Origin: an uncultured Bacteroidia bacterium
GTDB taxonomy: Bacteria; Bacteroidota; Bacteroidia; Bacteroidales; Prolixibacteraceae
Direction: 5' to 3'
Assembly: GCA_903850335.1 (NCBI GenBank)
Contig: CAINLJ010000019.1
Span: 1 to 34,349 of the forward strand
DNA: 34,349 nt
A program made the position numbers and the translations under genes. The notes beneath the pieces were generated by a model. That model ran no database searches. It worked only from the letters and a program-made list of their open reading frames with translations, and was not told the origin of the DNA. Below, one piece after another: positions 5,239-31,634 of the stretch. Every line of letters starts with the position of its first letter. The first letter of the stretch is position 1.

Positions 5239-5370
5239 TCATCGTGGAATTAAAAATATTGATTGCCACCAAAACACCCGATCACCAAAACGAACTAAAA
5301 GTATTAATTTCGCAATTCATTATAATTTATAGTATTGTACCTAATATTCTTTTTTACTAATTAACTTAAG

Positions 5371-6086: not shown

Positions 6087-6146
6087 CAATGACATTCCTC
6101 TTTTCATTCTGTTTTCCGGATTAATATTTATCTGAAATTGAAAAAA

Positions 6147-7019: not shown

Positions 7020-7045
7020 ATAAACCATCAGGGTTCTCAATTGAA

Positions 7046-10383: not shown

Positions 10384-11322
10384 ATGGGTTCTATAGCAAT
10401 AGGTGTTGATGTAGGGGGTAGTCATGTGAGTTGTGCTGCCTGTAATATTTTAGAGAAGAGGTATTTACCTGAGACCTTTTCAGAGCGCGATCTGGATAAT
10501 CAGAGTGACGCAGATGTGATAATTGGAATCTGGAGTGCTACAATTCAATCAACAATTGATAAAGTTGGTCTTGAAAATGTTAGTGGCATTGGTTTTGCGA
10601 TGCCCGGCCCGTTTGATTATGCAAACGGAATCGCCAAGTTTCAAGGCAATAATAAAAAGTACGAGAATATTTATGGTTTAAATGTGCCGGAAGCATTACG
10701 AAAAAAAATGAATCTTCCGGATAATTTCCCAATACGTTTTATAAATGATGCTACAGCCTTTGCGATTGGAGAGGACTGGATTGGAAAGGCCAGCGGCTCA
10801 AAACGGTCGATGGCTATCACCTTGGGAACAGGGTTTGGATCAGCCTTTCTTTGCGACCGCTTACCCGTTGTAATTGGTGACGAGGTCCCTGATATGGGTT
10901 GTGTGTGGTATCTGCCTTTTAAAGATGGAAATGCAGATGACTTTTTTTCTACCCGTGGATTTCTCAATCGTTATTCCGAAAAGACAGGAAATCACCTGAA
11001 AGGAGTAAAAGAAATTGCAAAACTTGCAGAAACTGATCCGATCGCAAAATCATTATTCGAGGATTTTGGCGACCAGCTGGGTCTGTTTTTAGAGCCATAC
11101 ATGACCAGATTTGGTGTTGAGGTTTTGGTCATTGGCGGAAACATTTCGTATGCATTCCCATTATTTGGTAAGAACCTGAATGATTGTTTGAAATCCAAAG
11201 GGTCAAATATTCGTGTTGAGGTATCCGAATTAAAAGAAACTGCTTCGATGATTGGAAGTTCGGTGCTTGTGGATGAGGCTTATTTTGAAAAGGTAAGATT
11301 ATTGTTACCCCAAATGTCCTAA
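10384..11322 (+). CDS. ROK-family sugar kinase lacking the usual zinc motif
   Basis: A 312-residue cytoplasmic protein with the ROK/actin-like ATPase fold: phosphate-binding DVGGSH at 9-14, FAMPGPFD at 71-78, catalytic Asp122 in INDATAFA, GTGFG at 148-152 and a second GG in VIGGNIS. ROK kinases phosphorylate glucose, mannose, fructose, ManNAc or GlcNAc. The conserved H-x-C-x-C-G-x-x-G-C-x-E zinc segment is absent: the equivalent region reads GDEVPDMGCVWYLPF with one Cys and no His. Several divergent ROK groups lack it, so activity remains possible. Between a fucosidase and mannosidases, the natural role is phosphorylating the mannose or hexosamine released by the operon. A regulatory role is unlikely, as there is no helix-turn-helix domain. 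Confidence 0.85.
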   Translation: MGSIAIGVDVGGSHVSCAACNILEKRYLPETFSERDLDNQSDADVIIGIWSATIQSTIDKVGLENVSGIGFAMPGPFDYANGIAKFQGNNKKYENIYGLNVPEALRKKMNLPDNFPIRFINDATAFAIGEDWIGKASGSKRSMAITLGTGFGSAFLCDRLPVVIGDEVPDMGCVWYLPFKDGNADDFFSTRGFLNRYSEKTGNHLKGVKEIAKLAETDPIAKSLFEDFGDQLGLFLEPYMTRFGVEVLVIGGNISYAFPLFGKNLNDCLKSKGSNIRVEVSELKETASMIGSSVLVDEAYFEKVRLLLPQMS

Positions 11323-11339: not shown

Positions 11340-13748
11340 ATGGATCATATAAAAAATACGGGAATTAAAATTCTCTTTATACTTCTATTATGCGGTACAA
11401 TTCTTTCTTGCCAACAGCTACAAAAGTCCTTTAATCCATCACAATATGTCGATCCTCAGATAGGCTCAGTTCATGGCAGGTGGTTCTTTTATACCCCGGC
11501 TGCATTGCCTTTTGGAATGGCTAAATTAGCACCTCACACCAATGCAGCAGGCAGTTTGGGTAGCTGGGCACCTTGTGGGTATGACGATCGTCATACCTCC
11601 ATTGAAGGGTTTGGTCATTTTCATGAATTTCAGATTGGAGGTGTTGTATTTATGCCAACAGTTGGTGAGGTCAAGACCAGGCCGGGCACAACAGACCATC
11701 CGGCAGGAGGTTACCGGTCTCAATTTGACAAGAAAACTGAACACGCCGAGCCAGGTTACTATTCGGTTTTTTTGAAGGATTACGGAATCAAGGCAGAACT
11801 TACCGCGACAGAGAGGGTAGGATTTCACAGGTACACTTTTCCTTCAACGGAAACTGCTCATCTGATCATTGATATTGGTCATAAACAGGGAGAAAGCAGC
11901 GATGTAACTGACGCTTTTGCACAAGTCGTGAATGGAAACGAAATAGAGGGTTTTGTCGAGACTAATCCGGAATATGTAAAATTTGGGGATCCGGGTAAGC
12001 GTGTAAAAATGTATTTTATAGCAAGACTCAGCAAACAACCTCTGCAAACCGGGGCATTTGTCGATTCAATCCAACAAATTGGGGCAAAAACAACAAGAGG
12101 AATCCGAAACGGACTGTTTCTGAATTTCAGTATGACTTCAAATGAAATCCTGGAGATACAAACCGGGTTAAGCTATACTTCAATTCAAAATGCCCGGTTG
12201 AATCTCAAAACAGAAGCCGAAGGTAAGACTTTTGATGGAGTCAGGCAATCTGCTCACACAATCTGGAATGATAAATTAAGCCGGATCCGGGCTGAAGGTG
12301 GCGATAGTCTTAGTCGTGTTAAATTCTATACCGGACTATACCATGCATTGCTTGGGCGTGGTATGTCGAATGATGTAAATGGTCAGTATCCATTGGTTGA
12401 TAATGGTATAGGACAGATTCCTGTTGACGGAAGGGGAGAACCAAAGTACCATCATTACAATACAGACGGGATCTGGGGAGGGTTTTGGAACCTTAGTCAG
12501 TTATGGGCACTGGCTTATCCTGACTATTTTACCGAATACATTCAGTCAAATATCGATTTTTATAAGACACGAGGCTGGCTTCACGATGGTGAAGCAGCCG
12601 GGACTTACACAAATGGTGTTCAGACAAATTTTCAGGGCTTGTTAATTTCTTCAGCATATAACTGCGGAATACGTGATTTTGATGTAAAGACTGGCTATGA
12701 GGCTTCAGTTAAAAATGAGCTGGATTATCATGGAAGGAATCTTGGAAACGGGAAATACGATCTGAACTTTTTCGTGAAAAATGGATATGTACCTTCCCGT
12801 GACACACTATTATCAAATGGCTGGAAATTTAATTTTGGCTCGTCGCATACGCTTGAATATAGTTTCAGCTCTTATGCAGTAGCTCAGCTGGCAAAACAGC
12901 TGGGACATAATGATGACTTTGAGAAACTGATCAAACAGGCGTCATATTACAGAAATCTTTTTGACCCTGAAACGAAGATGATGAGACCGAAATTAATTGA
13001 GGGTACATTTATCCCGAATTTTGATCCAATGAAAGCATGGGTTGGATTTCAGGAAGGAAATGCGTTTCAATATACATGGTATGTTCCTCATGATATAGCG
13101 GGTTTGATCCAATTGATGGGTAAGGATGAGTTTAACAAAAGGCTGGAACATGTGTTTGACGTTTCCCAAAAGAGCAAGTTTGGTGGCGGCTCTGATGAGG
13201 TGGATAGTTTTTCGGGTATTGAAAAAATGTATAATCATGGTAATCAGCCTTGTCTGCATGATTCCTGGTTGTTTAACTACAGCGGCCAGCCTTGGTTAAC
13301 ACAGAAATGGACCCGGGCAATATGTGATGAATTTTATGGAACAGAATCGTTAAGGGGATATGGCATTGGGCAGGATGAAGATCAGGGTCAGCTTGGAGCA
13401 TGGTATGTGATGTCTGCATTGGGTATTTTTGATGTTCAGGGTCATAGCTCCATAAATCCTACCTTCCAGTTTGGAAGCCCACAGTTTGATCGGGTAACCA
13501 TCCAGCTTGATCCTAAATATTATAAAGGCAAAGAATTGATTATAAAGGCAGAGAATAATTCGAAAACCAATTCCTTTATCCAGTCACTTAGTTTTAATAA
13601 TCAAAATATTGAAAAGTGCTGGATCAACCGCGCGGAATTAACAAATGGAGGAACCCTGGTCTTTAAGATGGGTGCAGAACCAAATAAAACCTGGGGTATA
13701 AGTGCTCCTCCCCCAAGTATGAGCGACGGGCAGCAGAAAGTCAATTAA
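11340..13748 (+). CDS. GH92 exo-alpha-mannosidase, lipoprotein
   Basis: An 802-residue lipoprotein (lipobox ILSC, Cys24). Residues about 36-280 are the N-terminal beta-sandwich (YVDPQIGS, TPAALPFGMAKLAPHT, GFGHFHEFQIGG). Residues about 300-700 are the (alpha/alpha)6 catalytic domain with NTDGIWGGFWNLSQLW and QEGNAFQYTWYVPHD, where Glu572 sits at the place of the family's catalytic acid. It continues with HGNQPCLHDSWLFNYSGQPW and GQDEDQGQLGAWYVMSALG, whose Asp residues hold the base position. GH92 enzymes are calcium-dependent, inverting alpha-mannosidases that mainly cut alpha-1,2 and other mannosyl linkages of N-glycans. The usual GNEP and GNDD wording is changed to GNQP and GQDEDQG, marking a subgroup that may differ in linkage preference. 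It lies 17 bases after the kinase. Confidence 0.92.
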   Translation: MDHIKNTGIKILFILLLCGTILSCQQLQKSFNPSQYVDPQIGSVHGRWFFYTPAALPFGMAKLAPHTNAAGSLGSWAPCGYDDRHTSIEGFGHFHEFQIGGVVFMPTVGEVKTRPGTTDHPAGGYRSQFDKKTEHAEPGYYSVFLKDYGIKAELTATERVGFHRYTFPSTETAHLIIDIGHKQGESSDVTDAFAQVVNGNEIEGFVETNPEYVKFGDPGKRVKMYFIARLSKQPLQTGAFVDSIQQIGAKTTRGIRNGLFLNFSMTSNEILEIQTGLSYTSIQNARLNLKTEAEGKTFDGVRQSAHTIWNDKLSRIRAEGGDSLSRVKFYTGLYHALLGRGMSNDVNGQYPLVDNGIGQIPVDGRGEPKYHHYNTDGIWGGFWNLSQLWALAYPDYFTEYIQSNIDFYKTRGWLHDGEAAGTYTNGVQTNFQGLLISSAYNCGIRDFDVKTGYEASVKNELDYHGRNLGNGKYDLNFFVKNGYVPSRDTLLSNGWKFNFGSSHTLEYSFSSYAVAQLAKQLGHNDDFEKLIKQASYYRNLFDPETKMMRPKLIEGTFIPNFDPMKAWVGFQEGNAFQYTWYVPHDIAGLIQLMGKDEFNKRLEHVFDVSQKSKFGGGSDEVDSFSGIEKMYNHGNQPCLHDSWLFNYSGQPWLTQKWTRAICDEFYGTESLRGYGIGQDEDQGQLGAWYVMSALGIFDVQGHSSINPTFQFGSPQFDRVTIQLDPKYYKGKELIIKAENNSKTNSFIQSLSFNNQNIEKCWINRAELTNGGTLVFKMGAEPNKTWGISAPPPSMSDGQQKVN

Positions 13749-13785: not shown

Positions 13786-16401
13786 ATGAAAACTAAAAGT
13801 ATTGCGACAATATTGTTTTTGGCTCTCTCAGTTCAGGTGTTTGCCCGTCATGAAATGATCAAAATCAACTCAGGATGGATAGCAAAAAAGTCTGAAGACA
13901 TCACAGCTGATGGTACTGTAATCACCGGAAAAGAGTTCAAATTTTACGATTGGATGGAGGCTGTGGTTCCGGGGACTGTTTTGACAACTTTACTCCATAA
14001 TCATAAAATTCCGGATCCTTTTTTTGGTATGAATAATGAATTGATCCCGGATATCTATCAGGTTGGGGCAGGATATTATACTTATTGGTTTTATAACGAA
14101 TTTAAAATAACGGATATTAAGGAGGGAGAGCAGGCCTGGCTAAACTTCCGTGGTATTAACTACGCTGCGGAGATGTTTCTTAATGGCAAAAAGATCAATC
14201 CGGATACCCATGAAGGGATGTATTTAAGAGAAAAATATCTCATCACACCGTTTCTTGAAAAAGGATCAAACCGTCTGGCAGTCTTGGTTCATCCACCCGA
14301 TCCTGTCGGGGCACCAAACGGGCAGGGGGGTGATGGAATGATTGCCAGGTCAGTAGCCATGCAATTTACTGCGGGTTGGGACTGGATCTGTCCGATCAGG
14401 GATCGCAATACAGGTATCTGGGACGAGGTGGCACTTGAGATTACCGGCCCTGTCGATTTACTGGATTCATATATTCAAACCATTGTTCCCGGAAAAAGAA
14501 CCCCCGATGGCAACCAGGCTGCAGCCTTGATTGCCTCTTCAACTGATTTGGTTAACAGCACAGATATAGTCCAAAGTGGTAAAGTAATTGTGAAATGCGG
14601 TAATCAGGAGGTATCCAAGACTGTTATAATCCCTGCTGGTGTGAAGATATCCGTCAGGCTTCCTGAATTTAAAATTGAAAATCCACTTTTGTGGTGGCCA
14701 AATGGGATGGGTGCACACCCTTTGTATAAAGCCCGATTCTCATATGTCCCGAATGCCGGAACCCTATCGGATGAAGAGGAGATCACCTTCGGTATCCGGC
14801 AGACAGGGACCCGCTTTGATGACAAGCTCAACGCGAGGATCTTTTCTGTAAACGGGCAGGATGTATTTATTAAAGGAGGAAACTGGATTGCCTCTGACGC
14901 CATGTTACGTTTATCCGCTCAGCGTTATGATGCGGATGTTAAGATGCATGCAGAGATGAATATGAACATGATCCGGATTTGGGGTGGTTCGATGACTGAA
15001 CGTCCCGAATTTTATGATGCATGCGATAAATATGGATTGTTGGTTTGGCAGGATCTTTACATCTCGGGTGATTGCAATGGTCGTTGGTTTGATCCCGCGA
15101 AGAAAGAGAGTCAGGAACGCAGGAGAGCTTATCCGGATAACCATTCCCTTTTTGTGAATACAGTCGTGGATCAGGTGAAGATGTTGCGCAATCATCCAAG
15201 CCTTTATCTCTGGTGTGGTGGTAATGAGTATCCTCCACCGGCTGATATAGATAGAAAATTAAAGATGGAAATTTTCCCGCAATTTGATGGTTCCCGCTAT
15301 TATTTGGATCAGTCGACTTCTGAGGATCTGGCAAAAAGTAATCTGGGCGGAAATGGGGATGGTCCTTATGGTATACAGAATCCACTCCATTTCTTTACGG
15401 TAACATCCTTTCCGTTTAATCCTGAACTGGGTTCTGTTGGAATCCCAAATGTAGAAACCATGCGTAAAATAATGGATGACAAAGACCTCGTGATTCCGGG
15501 CAGGCGTCATGAAAATCCAACCTGGTCCTATCATAAATATATAGGTTACGATAATTATATCGATCAATATGGAAAACCGGAAGGGATTGACGATTTTTGT
15601 AAAAAGGCTCAGCTGGTTAATTATGAACAATATCGTGCCCTTCAGGAGGGATTTAATGCCGGCATGTGGACAAAATATTCGGGTATGCTCGTCTGGAAGA
15701 ACCAAAATCCATGGACAGCCCTGAGGGGACAATTTTATGATGTTTTTCTCGAACAAAATGGCGGGTTTTACGGTTATAAACATGGTGCTAAACCTGTTCA
15801 TCTCCAGTTAAATCTAAATGATTCTTCTGTTTGCCTGATAAATCAAACGGTTGCGGATCTAAAAGGACTTTCTGTTTCTGCAGACCAGTTTACTATCCAC
15901 GGAATGCTTCTTTCCAATGAGGTGTACCCGGCAAATATCCCGGCAAATAAAATCGAGGTGCTAAATAAAATTAAAACGTCGAATACGAAAGAGGAAGTAT
16001 TTTTTTTAAGGCTTAAGTTGTTAGGTGATAAAAGCCAGGTTATTGATGAAAATCTCTATTGGCTTTCAAGGCCTGGTAAGAGCTATGAAAAACTGAATGA
16101 GCTAAAGCCGGTTGAACTTGAAAGTGTTATAAAAATTAGTGAAAAGGGTGATAAATCAGTTGTAATCACTAATCCCGGGAAGGAAACTGCGTTTTTTGTC
16201 AGGCTTAAAATTTTGAGAGAAGTTGGCGGTGAACTTGCTTTACCGGTCTTTTTCAGCGATAACTATATAACTCTTTTTGGGGGTGAAAGCAAGGAAATTA
16301 ACATCGATTGCTCTCATCTGTTAGATATTAGCTCACCAAAATCACTGTGGCTTGGTTTGGAAGGTTGGAATTTAAAGAAAAACATGATTAAAATAAACTG
16401 A
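13786..16401 (+). CDS. GH2 beta-mannosidase-like enzyme, similar to mannosylglycoprotein endo-beta-mannosidase
   Basis: An 871-residue secreted protein (signal peptide about 1-20, ending VFA). Domain order is typical of GH2: sugar-binding beta-sandwich (about 25-220), Ig-like domain (about 225-340), catalytic barrel (about 350-660) and C-terminal beta domains. GWDWICPIRDRNTGIWDEV at about 197-215 is close to the mannosylglycoprotein endo-beta-mannosidase/exo-glucosaminidase branch. The acid/base is Glu481 in CGGNEYPPP; Glu547 in NPELGSVGIP is the likely nucleophile. The expected reaction is hydrolysis of the Man-beta-1,4-GlcNAc bond of the N-glycan core, which fits between two alpha-mannosidase genes. 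An exo-beta-glucosaminidase is the main alternative. It is spaced 37 bases after GH92 and 5 bases before GH38. Confidence 0.85.
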   Translation: MKTKSIATILFLALSVQVFARHEMIKINSGWIAKKSEDITADGTVITGKEFKFYDWMEAVVPGTVLTTLLHNHKIPDPFFGMNNELIPDIYQVGAGYYTYWFYNEFKITDIKEGEQAWLNFRGINYAAEMFLNGKKINPDTHEGMYLREKYLITPFLEKGSNRLAVLVHPPDPVGAPNGQGGDGMIARSVAMQFTAGWDWICPIRDRNTGIWDEVALEITGPVDLLDSYIQTIVPGKRTPDGNQAAALIASSTDLVNSTDIVQSGKVIVKCGNQEVSKTVIIPAGVKISVRLPEFKIENPLLWWPNGMGAHPLYKARFSYVPNAGTLSDEEEITFGIRQTGTRFDDKLNARIFSVNGQDVFIKGGNWIASDAMLRLSAQRYDADVKMHAEMNMNMIRIWGGSMTERPEFYDACDKYGLLVWQDLYISGDCNGRWFDPAKKESQERRRAYPDNHSLFVNTVVDQVKMLRNHPSLYLWCGGNEYPPPADIDRKLKMEIFPQFDGSRYYLDQSTSEDLAKSNLGGNGDGPYGIQNPLHFFTVTSFPFNPELGSVGIPNVETMRKIMDDKDLVIPGRRHENPTWSYHKYIGYDNYIDQYGKPEGIDDFCKKAQLVNYEQYRALQEGFNAGMWTKYSGMLVWKNQNPWTALRGQFYDVFLEQNGGFYGYKHGAKPVHLQLNLNDSSVCLINQTVADLKGLSVSADQFTIHGMLLSNEVYPANIPANKIEVLNKIKTSNTKEEVFFLRLKLLGDKSQVIDENLYWLSRPGKSYEKLNELKPVELESVIKISEKGDKSVVITNPGKETAFFVRLKILREVGGELALPVFFSDNYITLFGGESKEINIDCSHLLDISSPKSLWLGLEGWNLKKNMIKIN

Positions 16402-16406
16402 AAAAA

Positions 16407-19064
16407 ATGAAGAATTCTGTAGTCTTTCTGCTTCTATTTTCAATTACGATGTGTTTATCTGTTCATGCACCTGCACAAACTAAGGTAAACGAGGTGATTG
16501 TTGTTTTCAAAACACATTTTGATATAGGATATACAGATTGGGCCGATAATGTTGTGTACAATTATTCGCACAGCACGATCACAGGGGCATTGGATCTGAT
16601 TGAAAAATCGAAACAATATCCTAAGAATGAGCAGTTCAAATGGACGATTTCAGGTTGGCCGATGCAAAAAATGATCTCATTATCTGAGCCGGCAGTGAAG
16701 CCACGGATTGAAAAAGCTATCCGTGAGGGTGATCTGATTGTTCAGTCTATGCCTCTAAGTTTTGAAACAGAGGCACTTGACCTTGAACCTTTGGTCCGGT
16801 CACTTTCCTATTCCTCAAAAATAAATCGGGAAGCCGGGTTATCTCTTCCGATAGATGCCAAACAAACCGACGTTCCGAGTCATTCCTGGATTCTTCCTAC
16901 TATTCTTACAAATGCCGGAATTAAATTTCTTCATATTGGTTGTAATGCTGCATCTATGTCGCCGGATGTTCCGATGTTATTCTGGTGGGAAGGTCCGGAT
17001 AAATCCAGGGTTATGACAATGTATTATGGCCCATATTATGGCACGAGTCCTGCTCCGCCGCAGGGATGGCCTTTTAAGTCCTGGCTGGCTATCGTGATGA
17101 CGAATGATAATACCGGAGTTCCATCTTTTCAGGACTACCGGAATGCAATCGAAGAGATTCAAAAGTTGAATCCGGGTGCAAAGATCAAAACCGGAAGCAT
17201 GGGAGATTTCTATGCCTCATTAATCAAAGAGAATCCGGAATTGCCTGTTATAAGAGGAGACATGCCTGATACCTGGATCCATGGATACATGTCGATGCCC
17301 AAAGAGGTGAAAGAAGGCAGAATCCTTAGTAAATCCGTTGCAAACCTTGAAGCACTTAATTCACTCACAAGCATTTGGGGCTGTGAGACGGAGAAAAAGA
17401 TTGGCCCGGTAGTTGACGATGCAATGGAACAAATTCATCTTTGGGATGAGCATTCTTTTGGAATGGCAATGAGTCACGGTCACGGAGGATATTGGGCTTA
17501 TGGTGACGAATTTGACAATTTACGGTCAAAGGGCTTTTACGACCCGATTGAATATTCATGGAAAGAAAAAGCCAGTCATATTGATCTTGCCGCTAAGCTT
17601 ATTAATCCTGCTTTGACCCGGGAAATGAAAGGACTTGCAGAATCTATTGATATTAAAGGGGATAGAATTGTTGTTTATAATCCGCTTCCCTGGGAACGCA
17701 GCGGACTGGTGACCGTTCAAACAACTTCAAAATTGAGTGAGTCATTAAAAAATACAATGACCGGCGAGGTGGTGCCGGTTTTCAGGAATCATAACATCCT
17801 TCAATTCAAGGCAAATAAAATTCCTTCAATGGGATATGTCTCCTTCGTTCCGACTGAAAACACCAAGCTTAAAAACTCTGATGGGATGGTTTGTGATGCG
17901 AAAGGTGGTATCCTCGAAAATCAGTTTTTTAAGGTTGTATTTGACTTACAAAATGGAACAATTAAATCGGTAAAGGATAAGAATTCCGGACGTGAGTTAG
18001 TCAATCCAGACTCTGAACTGCAATTTGGCCAATATGTTTATGAACGATTCAGCAAGCAAAATACAGATAAATATGCCAGGGATTACATCAAGGGTGGATA
18101 TGACTGGGCATATCCTGAACTTGGGAGAATCAACCTGACTAACGAACCCTACACCAGAAGTTCAGGCAAAAATGCCCGTGTTGAATTCTTAAATGATTCG
18201 ATATCCGTTTCTGCTGTAATGCATTTTAATTCTGACGCGGCGTTAAAACAGAATTATTCATTGATCTGCACGTTAACCCAAACAAGTCCGGTAATTGAGA
18301 TAATCTGGAGTATTAAAGGTAAGCCTGCCGATGCATGGCCTGAAGGTGGATGGGTAAGTTTCCCGTTTAATGTGGAAAAACCAGTATTTAAACTGGGACG
18401 GCCGGGTGCTGTTGTCGATCCTGCCATTGACTATATCAAGGGTTCGAACCATGATTATTGTTTCCTTAGTTCAGGAATGGCAATCCTGGACTCTAATAAT
18501 CAGGGATTTGGTATTATGTCTCCGGATGTTCCGGGGATCAGCCTTGATCGACCCGGATTGTGGTCCTATTCTCCGGATTTTGTCCCGAAAAAGGCAAATG
18601 TCTTTTTTAACCTCTTTAACAATCAGTGGAGCACAAACTTCACAGAATGGATTGAAGGTTCATGGAACGCACGGTTTTATATCTGGAGCATTGATAAATA
18701 TGCTGAGGCTGCTTCAATAGTTACGCCTTCTGAAGAAATTCGAAATCCTTTAATGACCGGGCTGGCAACTGGAAATGCGGGTAAGATGCCGGCTTTCAGA
18801 CAAGGAATTGTCCTTTCAGCTAAAGGTGTTTTGGTTACAGCATTTGGCAAAAACAGAGATGGGTCGGGGGATCTTCTCCGATTATGGGAGCAAAATGGAA
18901 TAAATACAAAATGTGTTGTCACACTACCTGTTGAAAGTAAATATTCTGTCGCTCAGTCGTGCAATTTAAGAGGAGAAAAAAATGGTATGGCCATACAAAT
19001 AAAAGATCATTCTTTTGTTACTGAGTTAAATGCCTGTCAACCGGTTACGTTCATACTTAACTAG
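16407..19064 (+). CDS. GH38 alpha-mannosidase, secreted
   Basis: An 885-residue protein with a signal peptide (about 1-23, ending APAQ). The catalytic domain shows the zinc-binding KTHFDIGYT segment (His37, Asp39), TDVPSHSWILP with Asp155 as predicted nucleophile and zinc ligand, FWWEGPDKSRVMT, and MSHGHGGYW (His357/His359) where the fourth ligand is expected. About 460-880 is the beta-rich C-terminal region (GGILENQFFKVVFDLQNGTIKS, SGRELVNPDSELQFGQYVY). GH38 enzymes retain configuration and remove alpha-1,2/1,3/1,6-linked mannose. With GH92 it would strip the branches that GH92 leaves, before the GH2 enzyme attacks the core. It starts 5 bases after the GH2 stop. The DVPSHS nucleophile segment differs from the eukaryotic DPFGHS form. 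Confidence 0.9.
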   Translation: MKNSVVFLLLFSITMCLSVHAPAQTKVNEVIVVFKTHFDIGYTDWADNVVYNYSHSTITGALDLIEKSKQYPKNEQFKWTISGWPMQKMISLSEPAVKPRIEKAIREGDLIVQSMPLSFETEALDLEPLVRSLSYSSKINREAGLSLPIDAKQTDVPSHSWILPTILTNAGIKFLHIGCNAASMSPDVPMLFWWEGPDKSRVMTMYYGPYYGTSPAPPQGWPFKSWLAIVMTNDNTGVPSFQDYRNAIEEIQKLNPGAKIKTGSMGDFYASLIKENPELPVIRGDMPDTWIHGYMSMPKEVKEGRILSKSVANLEALNSLTSIWGCETEKKIGPVVDDAMEQIHLWDEHSFGMAMSHGHGGYWAYGDEFDNLRSKGFYDPIEYSWKEKASHIDLAAKLINPALTREMKGLAESIDIKGDRIVVYNPLPWERSGLVTVQTTSKLSESLKNTMTGEVVPVFRNHNILQFKANKIPSMGYVSFVPTENTKLKNSDGMVCDAKGGILENQFFKVVFDLQNGTIKSVKDKNSGRELVNPDSELQFGQYVYERFSKQNTDKYARDYIKGGYDWAYPELGRINLTNEPYTRSSGKNARVEFLNDSISVSAVMHFNSDAALKQNYSLICTLTQTSPVIEIIWSIKGKPADAWPEGGWVSFPFNVEKPVFKLGRPGAVVDPAIDYIKGSNHDYCFLSSGMAILDSNNQGFGIMSPDVPGISLDRPGLWSYSPDFVPKKANVFFNLFNNQWSTNFTEWIEGSWNARFYIWSIDKYAEAASIVTPSEEIRNPLMTGLATGNAGKMPAFRQGIVLSAKGVLVTAFGKNRDGSGDLLRLWEQNGINTKCVVTLPVESKYSVAQSCNLRGEKNGMAIQIKDHSFVTELNACQPVTFILN

Positions 19065-19180: not shown

Positions 19181-21883
19181 ATGGCAAATAAATTACAAAC
19201 AATAACGGGTATTTTCCTTTTGTTCATTTCCTGTGCCCCGAAAGAGACGCTTATAAAAAGTCCGGAACGTCTTGCTGATATACAAAGGATGTTAAAAGAA
19301 CAGAAAGATCTTACTTCAAAGAGTCTGCTTCCAACATGGGATTTTCTTAATCAGGAGTTACCGGAATCTGAGAAGCAGGCCATGGAGTTTTTATATGCCT
19401 ATATGCCATTGAGCGATCTGGCCGATTACAAATCTGATTTCTTCCTTAAAAATGTAAGGTTCAGTTTAAAGGCGCGGGAAGAAATGCTATGGGGAAAGAC
19501 AATTCCGGAGGAGGAGTTTCTTCATTTTGTCCTTCCTCTTCGGGTTAATAACGAAAATCTCGATAATTTCAGGGAAGTGATGTATCCACAGATAAAAGAG
19601 CGGGTTAAAGGTCTTGGGATGAAGGAGGCAGCGCTGGAGATTAACCACTGGTGCCATGAAAAGGTTAATTACAGGGGTACAGATTCCAGAACCAGTGCGC
19701 CATTAAGTACTGTGAAGAAATCTTTTGGCCGGTGCGGGGAGGAATCAACATTTACGGTTACAGCGCTTCGAACTGCCGGAATTCCCGCAAGGCAGGTCTA
19801 TACCCCTCGTTGGGCACATTCGGATGATAATCATGCATGGGTTGAGGTTTGGATCGACGGAAAATGGAATTATCTGGGTGCCTGCGAACCTGATGTTGAC
19901 CTGAATATGGGATGGTTTAGTGAACCTTCGCGCCGCACAATGCTTGTCCATACGCGTGCATATGGCCGTTACTTTGGCAAAGAAGACCTTGTTATCGCGA
20001 CAGACCGCTTTTCTGAATTAAACCTTACTTCCAATTATGCGACTGTAAAGAAGATTACAATCTCCGTCAGGGATATTAATGGTGTCCCGGTCGATAGTGC
20101 AAAGGTTGAATATCAACTATATAATTATGCTGAATACTATCCGATTGCAACAGGGTTTACAAATAAAAACGGATTGGCTGGTTTAACAACAGGAATGGGT
20201 GATCTTGTAATTTGGGCGTCAAAAAATGGAAAGTTTAATTACCAAAGGTTTTCGGTACCTGAGAGAGATACTTTAAAACTGGTTTTGTCACTAACTGTTC
20301 CTTCGAATAAGAATGAATCTTTTGATTTCATCCCACCACATGCTGCCAAAGTGGTTTCAAATGTTACCGAAAAAGCTGTTAAGGAAAATACACGGCGCCT
20401 TTCAGTCGAAGATTCTATACGCGGAGCTTATCAGAAAACCTTCAGGGACTCAGTCTGGATTGCCGGTTTTGCAAAGAAAACAAATCTGCCATTTGATACA
20501 ATCTCGAGATTCTTTAAATTAAGCTATGGGAATTGGGATCAGATCGCTGAATATCTGGAGAAGAATGCACCTAAATATCGTACCAACATGCTTGATATGG
20601 TTATTCAGATTTCGGACAAGGACTTCAGTGATACTCCAGAATCAATCCTTACAGATCATTTGGTTCAGGTTGCTCAGAACGGTGGAAATTTTAATGGGTT
20701 TTCAAAAGAATTATTTACTCGAACTATTTTATCTCCCCGGATTGGACTGGAAAAGCTGAGTCCATGGAGGAGTTTTCTGTCAGCCTCCTTGGGAAAAGAG
20801 ATGGCTGTGGCGGTTCAAAATGATGTTTTAGTGCTTACCAAATGGATCCGTGAAAACATCAGAATCGATAACAATGCAAACAAACATTCGCGTTCACCCC
20901 TTTCTCCGATCGGTGTTTATAATCTTAGGGTAGCGGATCCTGTTTCAAGGGATATTTTCTTTGTTGCTGTTTGTCGGACTTTTGGCATTCCTGCCCGGCT
21001 AAATCCGGAGAACCAGATACCTGAATATCTTAATAAAGGCCAATGGCTGCGTGCCGGTTTTGAACCGGAGGCCGTCGTTCAACCACAAATGGGAAAACTT
21101 CTGTTATCAGATAAAGGAAATGGTGTTCCTCCGCAGTATGCGCTTCATTTTACGATTGCCATTTTAAGAAATGGCTTCTTTCATACACTTGAATTTCCTG
21201 AGGGCAAAGTACTTACTGATTCTAAGGATCCTATCTCACTTGAGACAGGACATTATGCATTGATTACCGGAAACCGTCTCCAGGATGGTTCAGTATTAAG
21301 CAATATGACATTTTTCGAAATTGAGAATGGAAAAGTTACTAAGGTGCCTATCGAACTTCGTAAACAGGCCGGTGAGCTTAAATCCTTGGGAAGGCTTAAT
21401 CTTGAGCTCCTTAACCTCAGAAAAACGGGCAGTGAAATCACTGAATCAGTCTCTTCGGTTATAGCTGGCAATCATTCCGTTATAGTACTCTTTGATCCTG
21501 ATAAAGAACCTTCAAAACATATTCTCAATGATCTTGGACCTTATGTTGATTATTTTAATAAATGGGGCGGCCAGTTTGTTTTTGCAATGCCAGCTGAAAA
21601 GTCTGCCCTTGCCGGAGTACTTAAGACTTATAATCTTCCAACAAAAATAGTGAGCGGGATCGACTATAATGAAAATATTTTTAAGGCGGTTTCTGCTATA
21701 TTCGGAGATGGACTTAAAGATAAACTTCCCCTTGTTTTACTTTGTGATGGGACAGGAAATATTTATCTTTTCTCAGCAGGTTATAAGATTGGAGCCGGTG
21801 AACAACTACTCAAAATAATCTCTTCAATGGGATCCCTGCAGAGAAATAAGTCTCAGAAAATATCATGCACAACAATTAAGTAG
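19181..21883 (+). CDS. Lipoprotein with N-terminal transglutaminase/PNGase-like core, second degenerate core and thioredoxin-like tail
   Basis: A 900-residue protein. The ATG at 19181 gives a lipoprotein signal (lipobox LFISC, Cys18); an upstream TTG frame start at 19094 hides it and is rejected. Residues about 140-245 are a transglutaminase-fold core: Cys185 in GRCGEE, RTAGIPARQV, His218 in NHAWVEVWIDGKW, then a GACEP segment. RCGE, HxWxEV and ACE resemble eukaryotic peptide:N-glycanase, although the triad Asp site is Gly233. About 285-375 is a beta domain. About 545-670 is a second core (FGIPAR, His656) whose nucleophile position is Pro587, so it is inactive. About 755-890 looks thioredoxin-like. 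As the last gene of an N-glycan exoglycosidase operon it may release glycans or degrade glycopeptides; a protease or structural role is possible. Confidence 0.8.
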   Translation: MANKLQTITGIFLLFISCAPKETLIKSPERLADIQRMLKEQKDLTSKSLLPTWDFLNQELPESEKQAMEFLYAYMPLSDLADYKSDFFLKNVRFSLKAREEMLWGKTIPEEEFLHFVLPLRVNNENLDNFREVMYPQIKERVKGLGMKEAALEINHWCHEKVNYRGTDSRTSAPLSTVKKSFGRCGEESTFTVTALRTAGIPARQVYTPRWAHSDDNHAWVEVWIDGKWNYLGACEPDVDLNMGWFSEPSRRTMLVHTRAYGRYFGKEDLVIATDRFSELNLTSNYATVKKITISVRDINGVPVDSAKVEYQLYNYAEYYPIATGFTNKNGLAGLTTGMGDLVIWASKNGKFNYQRFSVPERDTLKLVLSLTVPSNKNESFDFIPPHAAKVVSNVTEKAVKENTRRLSVEDSIRGAYQKTFRDSVWIAGFAKKTNLPFDTISRFFKLSYGNWDQIAEYLEKNAPKYRTNMLDMVIQISDKDFSDTPESILTDHLVQVAQNGGNFNGFSKELFTRTILSPRIGLEKLSPWRSFLSASLGKEMAVAVQNDVLVLTKWIRENIRIDNNANKHSRSPLSPIGVYNLRVADPVSRDIFFVAVCRTFGIPARLNPENQIPEYLNKGQWLRAGFEPEAVVQPQMGKLLLSDKGNGVPPQYALHFTIAILRNGFFHTLEFPEGKVLTDSKDPISLETGHYALITGNRLQDGSVLSNMTFFEIENGKVTKVPIELRKQAGELKSLGRLNLELLNLRKTGSEITESVSSVIAGNHSVIVLFDPDKEPSKHILNDLGPYVDYFNKWGGQFVFAMPAEKSALAGVLKTYNLPTKIVSGIDYNENIFKAVSAIFGDGLKDKLPLVLLCDGTGNIYLFSAGYKIGAGEQLLKIISSMGSLQRNKSQKISCTTIK

Positions 21884-21906
21884 AAAGATTTGAATTCTAA
21901 AACCGG

Positions 21907-21948
21907 GATCAGGGAATTAAAGGATTTCTAATCTTTAATTCCCTGATC
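21907..21948. terminator. Bidirectional terminator hairpin between convergent genes
   Basis: A perfect 16-base stem (GATCAGGGAATTAAAG at 21907-21922, complement at 21933-21948) with a ten-base loop, followed on the plus strand by TTTGTTTTC. It ends the plus-strand operon 24 bases after its stop, and its right arm encodes the last residues of the minus-strand exporter, whose stop codon (21928-21930) lies in the loop. Confidence 0.8.
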
Positions 21949-24351
21949 TTTGTTTTCAGGTTTAGGATTTGTTTTTTCAACCTCCTCGTGTTCCTGATCC
22001 AGGTCATCATCGTCATAGATTTCCAGGATTGGTTCTGTAAATGCTTTGCTGGTCAGTCGTTTATCAAGTGTAAGAAGCAGGGATGGAAGCACCATTATGT
22101 TAAAAAACATAGCTATAAGCAGTGTCGTTGAAATGAGGACGCCCAGAGCCTGGGTTCCGCCGAAACTTGAAACAATAAAGACACTAAAGCCAAGAACCAG
22201 TACGATACTCGTATAAATCATGCTAAATCCCGCCTCATGAAGGGCGCTTATTGCGGATTGTTTAATCGCCCCATTGGTAACTTTCAGCTCATGTCTATAG
22301 CGGGAGAGGTACTGAATCGCATTGTCCACGGAGATTCCAAGAGCAATACTAAAAACAATTATTGTCGATGGTTTGATAGGTATTCCTATGAAACCCATGA
22401 GAGCAGCTGTAATTAGCAAGGGAATAATATTAGGAATCATCGAGACAAGGATCATCCTGAACGAAGAAAACAATAAAGCCATAAGCAGTGAGATTAGCGC
22501 GATTGCAATAAATACACTCTCAAAAAGATTATTAATCAAAAAGTTTGTGCCTCGTGCATAAATTACGCTATTCCCTGTTACAATTACCTTATATTTTGAA
22601 GGGCTGAAGATACTGTCAATCCTGGGATGAATTTTAGCCATTAATGAATCCATGTGTTTGGTCCCAATATCAGCCATTTGAAAACTTACCCTGGCTAATC
22701 TTTTGGTGCTGTCGAGATATGCATAGAGCAGATTATTCTTTTTCCCGTTCTGATTTTTTGGAAGATATCCCATGATAAAACCTTTCTCCACATTGCTTGG
22801 CATTGTATACATTGAAGAATCGCCTCCGAAATAGGCTTGTTTCGAAAACTTGAATAGTTCAGCAATCGAGAGCGGTTTCGAAAACTCAGGATTTTTATTG
22901 ATCATCTTCTGAAGATCATTGATCTTGTCAAGCGTTGTTCCTGAGATTACACCGTTTTTCTTTTTCGTATCAATTGAAATCTCAAATGGCATTACTCCTC
23001 CAAAATTTTGTTCGAAGAACTTAAGATCCAAATAAATAGGGTCGTTTGTTTCAAAGTCATCAACGATCTTGCCTGAAGTTTTCATGAGACTGATTCCCCA
23101 GAATCCGATCACAAGAAGTCCTCCGGCAATGCTGTAAATCAGGTTTCGGCGAAAACTGATCAACTGGATGATTTTATTGATAATTGCGCCGAAGAAGTTA
23201 CTGTCCAGATGTTTTATATGCTTGGCTGTGGGTGGATCAATGAAACTGAAAATAATGGGCAACAAGGTAATGCAAAGGATATATTCAAGCATTATATTGA
23301 GAGCAGTTATAATGCCAAACTCCCTTAACATCTGATTCGGGACTAAAATAAAAGCCGCAAATCCCAGTGCAGTAGCTGCATTTGTCATCAGTGATGCAAA
23401 ACCTATGCGTTGAACAACCCTGATGAGTGCCCTGATTTTATTACCGTGACTTCGGAATTCCCAATGATATTTATTCAGGATATAGATACAATTTTCGATC
23501 GCTATGATTACTATTAGCGACGGGATTACTCCGGTTAGAATTGTAATCTTAAAATTAAACAGTACGGTTGTTCCTAAAACCCACACTATGCTTATCGCCA
23601 CAATGAGTAATGAACTCAGTACTACTTTTACCGACCTGAAAAACAAATACATAATTAATGCGGCAATGCCTATACTCATAAGAATGAAAATGAAAAGCTC
23701 CTGCTTGACAGTTTTCATCATTATCGTGCGGATATATGGCATGCCTGAATAATGAACCTCAATTTTGTTGGCAGTTCCATATTCTGAGGCAGCTTTTACA
23801 ATATTTGCAACCAGTGCTATCCTTCGCTTGTCAATAAGTATTTTCTTATTAAGAGTGATAGCCATGAGTGCTGCATTTGTTCGGGGATTATACAACATTC
23901 CTTCATAAAACTTAAGCCCAAGTAATGTATTTCTAAGGCTGTCGACCTCCGTTTGTCTTGCAGGCCGTTTGAGTACTAAAGGATAATAATCAAACTGGTG
24001 GGTCACTTCGTTTTTGACAAGATTTAGCCCCCGGGTCATGCTGATTACATCTTCAACCCCATCAATTCCCCGTATTGTGTTTCCCAGATCATACCAGGCT
24101 GTAAATTGATTGAGTTTGAAAATATCGGGATTTTTTATTCCCAGCATAAGAACAGTACCATCTTCACCAAACTGATTTTTAAACTTTTGGTACTCAATCA
24201 TTGCACTGTCTTTGGCACTAAGTAAAGCCGTATTTTCGTAAGAAAGTTTTACGCTTTGTGCCTCATAACCAAGAAAAGCAGTAAAAGCTGCCAATATTGC
24301 GATTACAATGATTCTGTTACGAAGGATAACACGGGAGGTTTTTGTAAACAT
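21928..24351 (-). CDS. RND/MMPL-superfamily exporter
   Basis: An 807-residue membrane protein with duplicated architecture: a transmembrane helix at about 13-29, a periplasmic porter domain to about 215, then a bundle of helices beginning FIFILMSIGIAALIMYLFF. The same order repeats from about 395, ending with ALGISVDNAIQYLSRYRHEL, the RND signature segment in which the Asp sits in the proton-relay region; the first half has IAIENCIYIL with Glu instead. These proteins use the proton gradient to move lipids, sterol-like molecules or drugs, and MMPL-type members act without an outer-membrane partner in the same operon. The tail of about 35 residues is strongly acidic (EIYDDDDLDQEHEE). It is transcribed against both flanking operons, so a link to glycan use is not implied. 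Confidence 0.9.
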   Translation of the reverse strand: MFTKTSRVILRNRIIVIAILAAFTAFLGYEAQSVKLSYENTALLSAKDSAMIEYQKFKNQFGEDGTVLMLGIKNPDIFKLNQFTAWYDLGNTIRGIDGVEDVISMTRGLNLVKNEVTHQFDYYPLVLKRPARQTEVDSLRNTLLGLKFYEGMLYNPRTNAALMAITLNKKILIDKRRIALVANIVKAASEYGTANKIEVHYSGMPYIRTIMMKTVKQELFIFILMSIGIAALIMYLFFRSVKVVLSSLLIVAISIVWVLGTTVLFNFKITILTGVIPSLIVIIAIENCIYILNKYHWEFRSHGNKIRALIRVVQRIGFASLMTNAATALGFAAFILVPNQMLREFGIITALNIMLEYILCITLLPIIFSFIDPPTAKHIKHLDSNFFGAIINKIIQLISFRRNLIYSIAGGLLVIGFWGISLMKTSGKIVDDFETNDPIYLDLKFFEQNFGGVMPFEISIDTKKKNGVISGTTLDKINDLQKMINKNPEFSKPLSIAELFKFSKQAYFGGDSSMYTMPSNVEKGFIMGYLPKNQNGKKNNLLYAYLDSTKRLARVSFQMADIGTKHMDSLMAKIHPRIDSIFSPSKYKVIVTGNSVIYARGTNFLINNLFESVFIAIALISLLMALLFSSFRMILVSMIPNIIPLLITAALMGFIGIPIKPSTIIVFSIALGISVDNAIQYLSRYRHELKVTNGAIKQSAISALHEAGFSMIYTSIVLVLGFSVFIVSSFGGTQALGVLISTTLLIAMFFNIMVLPSLLLTLDKRLTSKAFTEPILEIYDDDDLDQEHEEVEKTNPKPENKDQGIKD

Positions 24352-24601: not shown

Positions 24602-27600
24602 ATGTCGTCAAAACAAACATTAAACCGCCGCAACTTTCTAAAAGGAATGACGTTTGGTACTGCCGGAATAATGACTGGTTTTTGGTTAAATTTATCTTCC
24701 GCAACAGCTTTAAATTCAAATGTTTCACAAAATATCCGAACCTGTTTTATGAACCCGCCCGACTTTGCCCGGCCATGGGTATACTGGTTCTGGATTAATG
24801 GGAACATAACCCGCGAAGGAATAACTGCGGATCTTGAAGCCATGCAGCGGGTAGGGATTGGGGGAGTCCTGATCATGGAAGTAGATGGAAGTCCAAAGGG
24901 CCCGATAGCTTTTGGCACTATGGAATGGCAGGAAATGTTTCGTTTTGCATGTAAGGAGGCTGCCAGACTGGGTCTTGAAATAAATATGAACGACGGCGCA
25001 GGATGGACTGGCAGCGGAGGACCATGGAACACTGCTGAGAATTCGATGCAACAACTTTTATATTCTGAAATGCAGATATCAGGAAGTAGTCATTTCAGTG
25101 GGTCCCTTCCACAACCCAAAATCCGGAAAGAAGGTATTACGGGAACGGAATCCGTTGAACCTGAATATTATCAGGACATTGCAGTAATCGCTTTTCCAAC
25201 ACCTGTGAACGACACTTATCAAACAGACAATATTCAACTTAAGGCGGGATTCAGGACAATCTCAACTCCCCCGGGAAGCCTTAGAAATGGCAATAATGCA
25301 TTTCAGATGCTCCCAATATCAGGTTCACCGGCACCGAAGGATGCAATAATTCAACCTGAGGCGATACTGAACCTCTCCTCATCGTATGTCAAAGGGCAGT
25401 TAACCTGGGATGTACCACCCGGTAACTGGACTATCTTAAGGTTTGGTCATGGTCCGACCGGAGCAACAAACCATCCTGCCCCACGAGCAGGTCTTGGATA
25501 CGAATGTGATAAGATGAGTAAAGAATCAGTTGAAATCCATTTTAACAAGTTTTTAGGAGATATAATGGCAATGGCCGGGCCGCTTACTGGTAAAACGCTT
25601 GTAGCAACTCATGTCGACAGTTGGGAGGTCGGTTATCAGAACTGGACAAAAAATTTCCCCGGGGAGTTCAGAAAGCGATGCGGATATGACATTATCCCAT
25701 TCCTTCCGGCAATTACAGGTCGTATAATAGGAAACGGTGAGTTTACTGAACGATTTCTTTGGGATTTACGTTTTACAATTTCGGAGCTTATCGCAGAGAA
25801 TTATGCCGGTCATCTGAGGACACTTTCCAATCAGCATGGGCTCAAATTTTCGATGGAAGCCATTGACAATACTCCTTTTGATGAGATCAGGGTTGGGGGG
25901 CAGTCTGACCTGCCACAGACTGAATTTTGGTACCGCCGTGAGACAGAAGCCATAGGAGAGTCAGGAGATTGTTTCGAAGGAGTATTCCGTTCTTATGCCT
26001 GGACTCCGGCAATGGTTTCAGCCGCTCATATCTATGGTAAAAAAATCATTCCATCAGAAGCATTCACAGCAAATCCTGGAGAAAACTGGCTGGCACATCC
26101 TGCTTTATTAAAACCGCAGGGCGACTGGGCATTTTGTGCCGGGATTAATCGTTTTATTTTTCATCGCTATGCCATGCAACCCTGGAAAGACCGAAATCCG
26201 GGAATGACAATGTCTTTTTGGGGTCTTCACTACGAACGAACACAAACATGGTGGGAAGAAACCAAACCATGGCATGACTACCTCACCCGTTGCCAGTACC
26301 TGCTTCAAAAAGGAAACTTTGTGGCCGATCTCCTCTACTTGCAAGCTGAATCAGCCCCAAACAGATTCATACCACCGGGTGTCGACTTCTCGAATCCTAT
26401 ACCTCCTGACACCCCGGGATATAATTTTGACGGATGTACTGCTGATGCAGTCTTAAACAGAATATCTATTAAAAATGGCCTCATTTCCCTGCCGGATGGA
26501 ATGACCTACCGGGCATTGGTACTCCCATCACAGGGAGACCAGTTGATGGCTGGTGTCATGACTGTAAATCTGGCAAAAAAGATTGGCGATCTTGTCAGTG
26601 AAGGAATGGTAATTATTGGGCCTCCACCTCTGAGGACTCCGGGACTCACAAACTATCCGCAATGTGAAGAAGAATTAAAGGATATCGTTGCTGGTCTTTG
26701 GGGTGAAAATAGCGTCGCAGGAGAACATAAAATTGGAAAAGGAGTAGTCTTTACAGGAAAGACTCCACAACAAGTACTTACTGAACTCGGGGTTCCTGAA
26801 GATTTTTCTTGTGGTCAACCAGCTCATTTTCGGTATACTCATCGTCGTGACGAAGATGGAACTGAAATATATTTCATTTCGAATAAGCAGGACCATGAAG
26901 TTGAAGCAGAATGTAATTTTAGGGTGACCAAACGGTGGCCTGAGTTTTGGTGGCCAGAATCGGGATTGACTGATATACCTGTCATGTTTTCGGAAATAAA
27001 TGGCGTAACAAAACTCCCGGTCAGGTTACCCGCTTTTGGTTCCGTTTTTGTTATTTTCCCTTCTGAAAGTCAACCTGGACCAGACCGCATTGTGAGTATA
27101 TCTCAAAATGATAAACAAATCAATGAAAATTTTGGAAGTAAAATTCAGGTTACAAAGAAGAACAGAAAATTTCAAGCTGTCATTTTTCAGCCAGGAAAAT
27201 ATACCCTTCAAACTGCAAACAACAAAAAACACAACATAGAAATTACAAACTTGCCTGAACCACAAAAAATTACAGGCTCTTGGGAAGTGCACTTTGCACA
27301 TGACCTGGGGGCACCACCCAAGGTTGAATTTCAGGATCTTATTTCATGGAGTGATCATCCTGATAAAGGAATCAGGTATTTCTCAGGGAAAGCGACGTAT
27401 CATAAAAAAATCAATATTTCACCTGAGTTGATAAAGAAGGACAGGCAGCTAATTCTGGATCTTGGCCAGGTTGAAGTCATTGTTATTGTGAAATTGAACG
27501 GAAAAGATCTTGGAATCCTTTGGAAAAAGCCTTATCAGGTTGATATAACTAAGGCAGCTCTGGCTGGTGAAAACTCTGTTGAACTGACAGTCGTTAACCT

Positions 27601-27844
27601 TTGGCCTAACCGGTTAATTGGCGATGCCAACCTTCCTGAAGATTGTAACTGGTCAGGTGAAGATTCCAAACCAATTATGCAGTCATTAAAAGAATATCCT
27701 CAATGGTTTGTTGATGGAAAACCTAGTCCTGCAGGACGTTATACATTTAGCATAATTAAAGTATGGTCCAAGGATGATGATCTGCGGAAGTCAGGTCTTT
27801 TAGGACCGGTAATGCTAAATGTTATTGCTAAGGTAATCATCTAA
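24602..27844 (+). CDS. GH106 alpha-L-rhamnosidase with Tat-type signal
   Basis: A 1080-residue protein. The N-terminus has a twin-arginine signal (Arg9-Arg10 in NRRNFLKG, hydrophobic core to about 35), unlike its Sec-exported neighbours. The catalytic part starts with the GH106 hallmark PPDFARPWVYWFWINGNITREG, then GITADLEAMQRVGIGGVLIMEVDG and MNDGAGWTGSGGPW. Candidate catalytic acids are Glu419 (FSMEAID) and Glu486 (PSEAFTA), by position relative to known GH106 enzymes; this assignment is tentative. Residues about 930-1075 are a beta-sandwich carbohydrate-binding domain (WEVHFAHDLGAPP, LDLGQVEVIVIVKLNGKDLG). GH106 enzymes invert configuration while removing terminal alpha-L-rhamnose, for example from rhamnogalacturonan II or glycosylated natural products. 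It leads a block with GH78, 132 bases downstream. Confidence 0.88.
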   Translation: MSSKQTLNRRNFLKGMTFGTAGIMTGFWLNLSSATALNSNVSQNIRTCFMNPPDFARPWVYWFWINGNITREGITADLEAMQRVGIGGVLIMEVDGSPKGPIAFGTMEWQEMFRFACKEAARLGLEINMNDGAGWTGSGGPWNTAENSMQQLLYSEMQISGSSHFSGSLPQPKIRKEGITGTESVEPEYYQDIAVIAFPTPVNDTYQTDNIQLKAGFRTISTPPGSLRNGNNAFQMLPISGSPAPKDAIIQPEAILNLSSSYVKGQLTWDVPPGNWTILRFGHGPTGATNHPAPRAGLGYECDKMSKESVEIHFNKFLGDIMAMAGPLTGKTLVATHVDSWEVGYQNWTKNFPGEFRKRCGYDIIPFLPAITGRIIGNGEFTERFLWDLRFTISELIAENYAGHLRTLSNQHGLKFSMEAIDNTPFDEIRVGGQSDLPQTEFWYRRETEAIGESGDCFEGVFRSYAWTPAMVSAAHIYGKKIIPSEAFTANPGENWLAHPALLKPQGDWAFCAGINRFIFHRYAMQPWKDRNPGMTMSFWGLHYERTQTWWEETKPWHDYLTRCQYLLQKGNFVADLLYLQAESAPNRFIPPGVDFSNPIPPDTPGYNFDGCTADAVLNRISIKNGLISLPDGMTYRALVLPSQGDQLMAGVMTVNLAKKIGDLVSEGMVIIGPPPLRTPGLTNYPQCEEELKDIVAGLWGENSVAGEHKIGKGVVFTGKTPQQVLTELGVPEDFSCGQPAHFRYTHRRDEDGTEIYFISNKQDHEVEAECNFRVTKRWPEFWWPESGLTDIPVMFSEINGVTKLPVRLPAFGSVFVIFPSESQPGPDRIVSISQNDKQINENFGSKIQVTKKNRKFQAVIFQPGKYTLQTANNKKHNIEITNLPEPQKITGSWEVHFAHDLGAPPKVEFQDLISWSDHPDKGIRYFSGKATYHKKINISPELIKKDRQLILDLGQVEVIVIVKLNGKDLGILWKKPYQVDITKAALAGENSVELTVVNLWPNRLIGDANLPEDCNWSGEDSKPIMQSLKEYPQWFVDGKPSPAGRYTFSIIKVWSKDDDLRKSGLLGPVMLNVIAKVII

Positions 27845-27976
27845 AAACAAAGATAAAGGTTTGGTTTTTTGATGTAAATTGTGATGTTTCGGGGCTGCAA
27901 TAAAAGTCTTGTTAACGGAAGTCTTCAAAATGAACATGCAGAATTCAGCAGATTTAATATTTTAATTATAAAAATT

Positions 27977-31621: not shown

Positions 31622-31634
31622 AAATTGACTTTTG

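Follow-up and report, generated by a model that had tools for sequence, protein, structure and literature searches.

The locus analysed here raises the question of what a transglutaminase-core protein contributes to an operon of glycoside hydrolase (GH) genes. The protein in question, designated TG, is encoded at positions 19181-21883 (forward strand) of a 34,349-nucleotide stretch of contig CAINLJ010000019.1 (assembly GCA_903850335.1), which is hereafter referred to as the window and which belongs to an uncultured member of the Prolixibacteraceae (order Bacteroidales); L- and G-numbers used below refer to loci and genomes, respectively. TG is the last gene of the order GH29-ROK-GH92-GH2-GH38-TG, with a divergent GH20 gene upstream. 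The balance of evidence tips slightly towards TG being an exported cysteine amidase that cuts the GlcNAc-Asn linkage of trimmed glycopeptides, as a non-homologous replacement of glycosylasparaginase (AGA). This reading is built on a predicted fold, conserved residues, gene linkage and a replacement pattern, from which the chemistry, substrate and compartment are inferred.

TG alternates with glycosylasparaginase

Matches to the Ntn-hydrolase family PF01112 in 295 Bacteroidales genomes were found to form two score classes. The class termed AGA comprises matches of ~210-250 bits whose alignment begins close to profile position 28; the one member compared with solved structures scored 440 bits with glycosylasparaginase entries and ~130 bits with isoaspartyl peptidases. 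Fifteen of the 16 fetched AGA proteins were scored against this checked member, of which 14 returned 335-734 bits (itself included) and one 240 bits. Split or partial PF01112 matches (G473, G599, G638, G442, G511 and G449) were left out. TG, present in 91 genomes, and AGA, present in 32, were found together in none of the 295 genomes (9.9 expected; Fisher 6e-6, kinship ignored), nor in any of the 194 genomes that carry GH92 (12.7 expected; 8e-9, kinship likewise ignored), i.e., the two genes show the alternation looked for in a glycosylasparaginase-like protein. Three families (f1, f125 and f137) hold TG and AGA in different genomes; in each of f125 and f137 the genomes concerned come from a single genus. 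Family f1 is that of the window, whose genome (95.6% complete) carries TG and no PF01112 match at E 1e-15, and three sampled relatives in this family carry AGA without TG.

The two genes also share neighbours. For example, the TG operon L126 reads EamA-MFS-GH20-TG-CutC-GH2, and AGA loci read CutC-GH2-(phosphatase-like)-MFS-AGA-GH20-EamA (L200), CutC-GH2-AGA-GH20 (L199) and GH20-GH92-CutC-AGA-GH2 (L198). In ten of the 16 fetched AGA loci, GH92, GH20, GH2 or CutC lies within three genes, and the other six show none of these (L202 read from coordinates). The resemblance of TG loci to AGA loci in gene content is strong in the near relatives of TG and for CutC, and weak for GH genes in 40 distant loci. 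Furthermore, the available text of PMC6960285 describes an MFS permease, a GH29 fucosidase, the glycosylasparaginase AsnA2 and the ROK kinase SugK that take up and degrade Fuc-GlcNAc-Asn in Lactobacillus (L.) casei; the window parallels this cluster in that GH29 and ROK genes are present and TG is found where the amidase stands. Two activities, i.e., release of N-glycans or of the GlcNAc-Asn stub from glycopeptides, had been put forward for TG in the original prediction, which was made from the window alone. Because TG occupies the place of glycosylasparaginase, cutting of the stub fits best, whereas nothing specific speaks for release of whole N-glycans.

The alternation also bears on the alternative that survives best, in which TG is a peptidase that trims glycopeptides for glycan-active enzymes, so that the link to N-glycans is real and a peptide bond is cut. 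The best core match of TG, both by structure and by sequence, is 3isr, titled putative cysteine protease, and the available text of PMC6960285 reports a peptidase gene, dispensable for growth, by the glycosylasparaginase gene of the L. casei GlcNAc-Asn cluster. However, a peptidase feeding AGA should accompany AGA, and the mutual exclusion of TG and AGA disfavours such a role, which is thus considered unlikely.

The second PF01112 class, isoaspartyl-peptidase-like by score, adjoins GH92 in two TG genomes (G107:C104 7969-10334 and G339:C19 156041-158588).

Domain organization and conserved residues

TG is a candidate transglutaminase-fold GlcNAc-Asn amidase of 900 residues, as delineated by its open reading frame, Pfam match and AlphaFold model (full length; mean pLDDT 90, pTM 0.89); an alternative TTG start at 19094 would extend it to 929 residues. 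Cys185 in RCGE, His218 in HAWVEV and the WIDGKW turn followed by LGACEP, all previously pointed out, are present in this frame. The catalytic transglutaminase core (residues ~147-262; 19619-19966), placed by a Transglut_core match, alignment and a model of the core, encompasses the codons of the nucleophile candidate Cys185 (19733-19735), of His218 (19832-19834) and of the G233-A-C-E236 stretch of the GACEP segment (19877-19888). Transglut_core (PF01841) matches TG with an E-value of 3.3e-26 and 92.1 bits, against a cut-off of 23.

Relatives of TG were confirmed in 433 cases and 80 loci were kept, 75 of which were aligned with the window (alignment A1, 76 sequences; L006, L022, L030, L041 and L054 were removed because the gene was split, truncated or uncalled). 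Alignment A2 has 66 rows, six of them from 13 loci fetched with a short paralogue, and alignment A3 has 60. Cys185, Glu187, His218, Gly233, Ala234, Glu236 and Trp245 are identical in all 76 sequences of A1, and the motifs are therefore not due to chance; the score above the curated cut-off, together with the invariance of Cys185 and His218, places TG in the transglutaminase-like superfamily. NCBIfam assigned TG to no family, and the Pfam scan matched only transglutaminase families, with no match to PF01112 or to the N-glycanase_N/C domains of PNGase F.

Residues 1-18 (19181-19234) read as a putative signal peptide with a lipobox-like LFISC, while the N-terminus of the L126 relative reads more like a plain signal peptide. 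Downstream of the core, an Ig-like domain (residues ~290-383; 20048-20329) resembles 3e8v over residues 293-369 (E 1.9e-18; TM-score 0.97 over the fragment). It is followed by a second core of the transglutaminase type that lacks the catalytic Cys (residues ~529-607; 20765-21001), indicated by two Transglut_core stretches and self-alignment, and by a thioredoxin-like fold without CxxC (residues ~745-893; 21413-21859), indicated by ResA-like foldseek matches and by 2m72 (E 0.036). No CxxC occurs anywhere in the 900 residues of TG. Within residues 771-790 of the thioredoxin-like domain, EPSKH is found in place of this motif, with Glu776 and His780 present in 76/76 sequences.

Relationship of the core to peptide:N-glycanases

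A comparison of the core profile with all solved structures returned five matches up to an E-value of 10, i.e., 3isr (1.2e-5), mouse peptide:N-glycanase (PNGase; 0.0083), yeast PNGase (0.18 and 0.2) and 6g49 (TgpA; 3.3). PNGases occupy the second to fourth positions, as the proposed kinship would have it, but the first is taken by the uncharacterised 3isr, titled putative cysteine protease. The TG-PNGase alignment spans GRCGE, HxWxE and W-x-x-x-(D/G)-x-C-E, and alignment and profile ranks together place TG nearer to PNGases, the nearest characterised enzymes to its core by profile, than to other characterised transglutaminase folds, though weakly, as are the E-values. Since thioredoxin folds swamped the foldseek result for the full 900-residue model, the core was modelled alone; 3isr then ranked first, S. 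pyogenes TglA fourth, mouse PNGase fifth/sixth, XPC eleventh and yeast PNGase fifteenth, with scores that fail to separate the transglutaminase families.

A Cys-His-Asp triad is termed essential for PNGase, and two CxxC motifs are described for the yeast enzyme, in the available text of PMC9102325. The doubt already expressed over the triad Asp of TG was justified, as Gly233 is found at that position in 76/76 sequences. The designation NGLY1/Png1-like thus holds in so far as PNGases are nearest by core profile, but not as family membership, and TG as an NGLY1 orthologue is ruled out by the absence of both triad Asp and CxxC. As regards the remaining conserved residues, Zhao et al. reportedly found that the CE Glu and a Trp further along in yeast Png1 contact chitobiose; if so, Glu236 and Trp245 of TG would form a sugar site.

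It is improbable that TG acts as a bacterial functional NGLY1, i.e., as a peptide:N-glycanase proper that detaches entire or large N-glycans. Besides the profile ranks, the RCGE and CE motifs common to TG and PNGases speak for this role, and a substitute could be needed in the seven of 19 hand-chosen TG genomes that are without a PNGase F-type gene. However, such genes are already present in the other 12, the window's genome included, the exclusion seen is with AGA, and TG lacks CxxC and the triad Asp. The original prediction had reasoned from the lack of both PNGase F and an endo-glucosaminidase in the window. The former argument fails: that the window lacks PNGase F carries little weight because the genome holds two PNGase F-type genes elsewhere, which also rules out the notion that TG must be the PNGase since none is present. 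As for the latter, GH18 and GH85 were undetected across the window's genome as well (E 1e-5 each).

Distribution and gene neighbours of TG

Long-form TG is found in 91 of the 295 Bacteroidales genomes, and another six hold only a ~400-residue paralogue. Beyond these genomes TG is rare: a scan of the class returned it in 7/395 genomes and a scan of the phylum with the TG core in 2/247 genomes, all of the same order; one Geothrix locus (L054) is among the 80 listed TG loci. The paralogue consists of the N-terminal core only and carries SCTG-like letters instead of RCGE, several copies having Glu at the usual third triad position (TEYYP); in three genomes, all from a single genus, it adjoins CutC (L217 6975-8165, L218 7609-8802 and L215 7550-8743).

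To describe gene neighbours, labels were taken from hidden Markov models built on the loci, with SusCD, GH18 and GH163 left unlabelled, 'GH2' covering several activities, and Pfam confirming the labels for sampled members rather than for each gene. The 119 TG neighbourhoods exclude L054, in which the opposite strand had been called, and count three TG genes twice (L055/L130, L069/L147 and L070/L124), and the 40 more distant loci (L117-L156) were hand-chosen from the 91 long-TG genomes. Controls were overlapping centres on 20 arbitrary contig stretches, drawn from 20 of these genomes, and had to have full flanks, which was not required of TG centres. Linkage to N-glycan genes in other genomes, originally proposed as a check, was indeed observed: the GH families of the window (GH92, GH29, GH2, GH20 and GH38) are adjacent to TG in 24/119 loci versus 4/237 control centres, and within three genes in 37/119 versus 5/160. 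When GH125, NagB-like and CutC genes are counted as well, these values become 38/119 versus 4/237 and 51/119 versus 5/160. A FastTree tree requires at least 13 gains or losses of a GH neighbour, from which it follows that the link between TG and GH genes was made or lost repeatedly. Furthermore, GH92 is present in 88/91 TG genomes, as compared to 106/204 genomes without TG.

Several individual loci deserve mention. At L120, a fusion of glucosamine-6-phosphate isomerase and PIG-L (GlcNAc de-N-acetylase) lies directly before TG (5089-7071) and is itself preceded by a second isomerase gene, an arrangement that once more suggests GlcNAc. Genes for a CBM9-like protein are found repeatedly in the vicinity of TG, in many cases together with GH92 (L026, L050, L070, L123, L124 and L131), and a CBM9-like gene was identified by eye at the Geothrix locus (L054 12559-13380). 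At L052 and L056, a LacI gene of the same cluster as that of loci L058-L079 is followed by GH38, TG and GH92.

CutC (PF03932, 'copper homeostasis'), whose copper-handling role has been questioned, recurs near TG and in places near AGA, GH92, GH2 and GH125 (e.g., L126 9687-10430, L131 6315-7058, L197 9377-10138 and G558:C14 302200-304976). It is present in 82/91 TG genomes versus 41/204 others, on the same contig as TG in 43 genomes and at most 1 kb away in 28, and GH92 is found in 118 of the 123 CutC-bearing Bacteroidales genomes. In the 40 distant loci CutC is the clear partner of TG, being adjacent in 11/40 versus 0/237 controls. Four AGA loci contain CutC with AGA, two of them also GH2 and GH20 and one GH2, GH20 and GH92; in the 15 genomes that have both, CutC and AGA are separated by 66 bp, 88 bp, ~3.3 kb, ~5.1 kb and 31 kb in five and lie on different contigs in ten. 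These data suggest a role for Bacteroidales CutC in the breakdown of N-glycans or amino sugars, in most cases alongside TG.

The same partnership speaks for a further alternative, namely that TG works as an exported amidase, deamidase or transglutaminase of general function commonly partnered with CutC, its glycosidase neighbours being lineage-limited; many TG loci lie amid housekeeping genes, and the 40 distant loci have few GH neighbours. CutC, however, goes with GH92 and accompanies AGA in four loci, and thus points to the same pathway, while the repeated change of GH-neighbour state on the tree does not favour a lineage-limited association. A general amidase is accordingly regarded as doubtful.

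Proposed reaction and its assessment

If TG is a GlcNAc-Asn amidase, its substrate would most likely be glycoasparagine or short glycopeptides that the fucosidase, mannosidases, GH2 enzyme and hexosaminidase encoded nearby have already trimmed, and cleavage of the innermost GlcNAc-asparagine bond would take place outside the cytoplasm. Cys185 would attack the side-chain amide with the assistance of His218, as in NGLY1, and Glu236 or Asp215 may act as the acid that orients His218. The expected products are aspartate and 1-amino-GlcNAc, the latter of which would decay to GlcNAc and ammonia; the freed GlcNAc could then pass via a transporter to a ROK kinase or to a NagB-type enzyme. TG would be NGLY1-like in chemistry and AGA-like in pathway, probably making the final cut of N-glycan breakdown, and is a member of neither family.

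A number of observations weigh against this proposal. The position of the PNGase triad Asp is Gly in every aligned TG sequence, and the nearest solved protein bears the title putative cysteine protease. The exclusion statistic ignores kinship and the AGA class was set by us from scores, while two TG genomes (G511 and G449) carry PF01112 fragments to which no class was assigned. As regards gene neighbours, 68/119 TG loci are without a labelled gene within three genes (40/119 end at a contig or locus edge), and the widest counts lean towards TG because the NagB, GH125 and CutC labels were added after the TG loci had been viewed. Among the loci from more distant genomes, the window's GH families adjoin TG in 4/40 and occur within three genes in 6/40, barely exceeding the control values given above. 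A large group of TG proteins (~40% identity; L058-L079) is encoded between LacI and TonB-receptor genes, near CTP synthase, and AGA and CutC are overall unassociated (15/32 versus 13.3 expected). The amidase reading is held only a shade more firmly than its negation, given that 3isr is titled a protease, that the triad Asp is absent, that GH genes are weakly linked to TG in distant loci and that the activity is a prediction. The broader proposal, i.e., that Bacteroidales possess a second, unrelated glycosylasparaginase on the NGLY1 fold, swapped within the same N-glycan gene set of which CutC is a regular member, is tentative and falls somewhat short of an even chance.

If true, the GlcNAc-Asn step that is otherwise missing would be filled in about a third of the sampled Bacteroidales genomes (91/295), and CutC would point towards an enzymatic role. 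A bacterial enzyme of the NGLY1 fold may in that case help the study of NGLY1 and of aspartylglucosaminuria, and could provide a tool for glycoproteomics. A literature search that did not cover preprints returned, among the matches listed, nothing on a bacterial transglutaminase-type glycanase or on a link of such a protein to AGA or CutC, and the word transglutaminase was not found in the main text, as available, of the N-glycan papers PMC9522356, PMC11180146 and PMC6960285.

Other genes of the window

The genes preceding TG encode a GH20 beta-N-acetylhexosaminidase (7046-8722, reverse strand; E 6e-122) and, on the forward strand, a GH29 alpha-L-fucosidase (8910-10358; Pfam match), a ROK-family protein that is probably a sugar kinase (10384-11322; matched by Pfam and below every NCBIfam cut-off), a GH92 alpha-mannosidase (11340-13748; Pfam match), a GH2 enzyme (13786-16401) whose nearest solved relatives are an exo-beta-D-glucosaminidase and then a beta-mannosidase, and a divergent GH38-like alpha-mannosidase (16407-19064; Pfam, with no solved relative at E 0.001). 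A consensus scan placed a terminator-like hairpin of 19 pairs 3' of the TG stop codon (21905-21950, forward strand), and TG therefore seems to end the operon; the scan returned 13 sites versus 13.5 expected in the scanned region, this hairpin being the longest by far. Further downstream, GH106, GH78 and GDSL-esterase genes (24602-33848) form a separate rhamnose-related unit, the rhamnosidase genes of which (24602-31621) are set off from the TG operon by a convergent RND transporter gene and seem to belong to a locus of their own.

Comparison with known systems

The cytosolic peptide:N-glycanase NGLY1/Png1 (EC 3.5.1.52) resembles TG in its transglutaminase core, with Cys in RCGE, His in HxWxE and CE after the turn, and TG is proposed to cleave the bond that NGLY1 cleaves. 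Unlike NGLY1/Png1, TG has Gly for the triad Asp, a signal sequence and no CxxC, and adds an Ig domain, a second, Cys-less core and a thioredoxin-like fold, while its substrate is probably a trimmed stub. AGA (EC 3.5.1.26; PF01112) has neighbours in common with TG in several loci and probably catalyses the same reaction, and both proteins appear by eye to be exported. The folds are nevertheless unrelated, AGA being described in the available text of PMC6960285 as an autoprocessed hydrolase with a Thr nucleophile, as opposed to the Cys/transglutaminase fold of TG. PNGase F-type enzymes (PF09112/PF09113) have no sequence relation to TG, although both would serve N-glycan catabolism and can share one genome. 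Among solved structures, 3isr of Cytophaga hutchinsonii is the best match to the TG core, with a TM-score of only 0.35 and an aligned stretch that ends before CE. Finally, 3e8v of Bacteroides fragilis, an 82-residue fragment of a possible transglutaminase-family protein whose structure comprises the Ig-like domain alone, is 44% identical to the Ig-like domain of TG.

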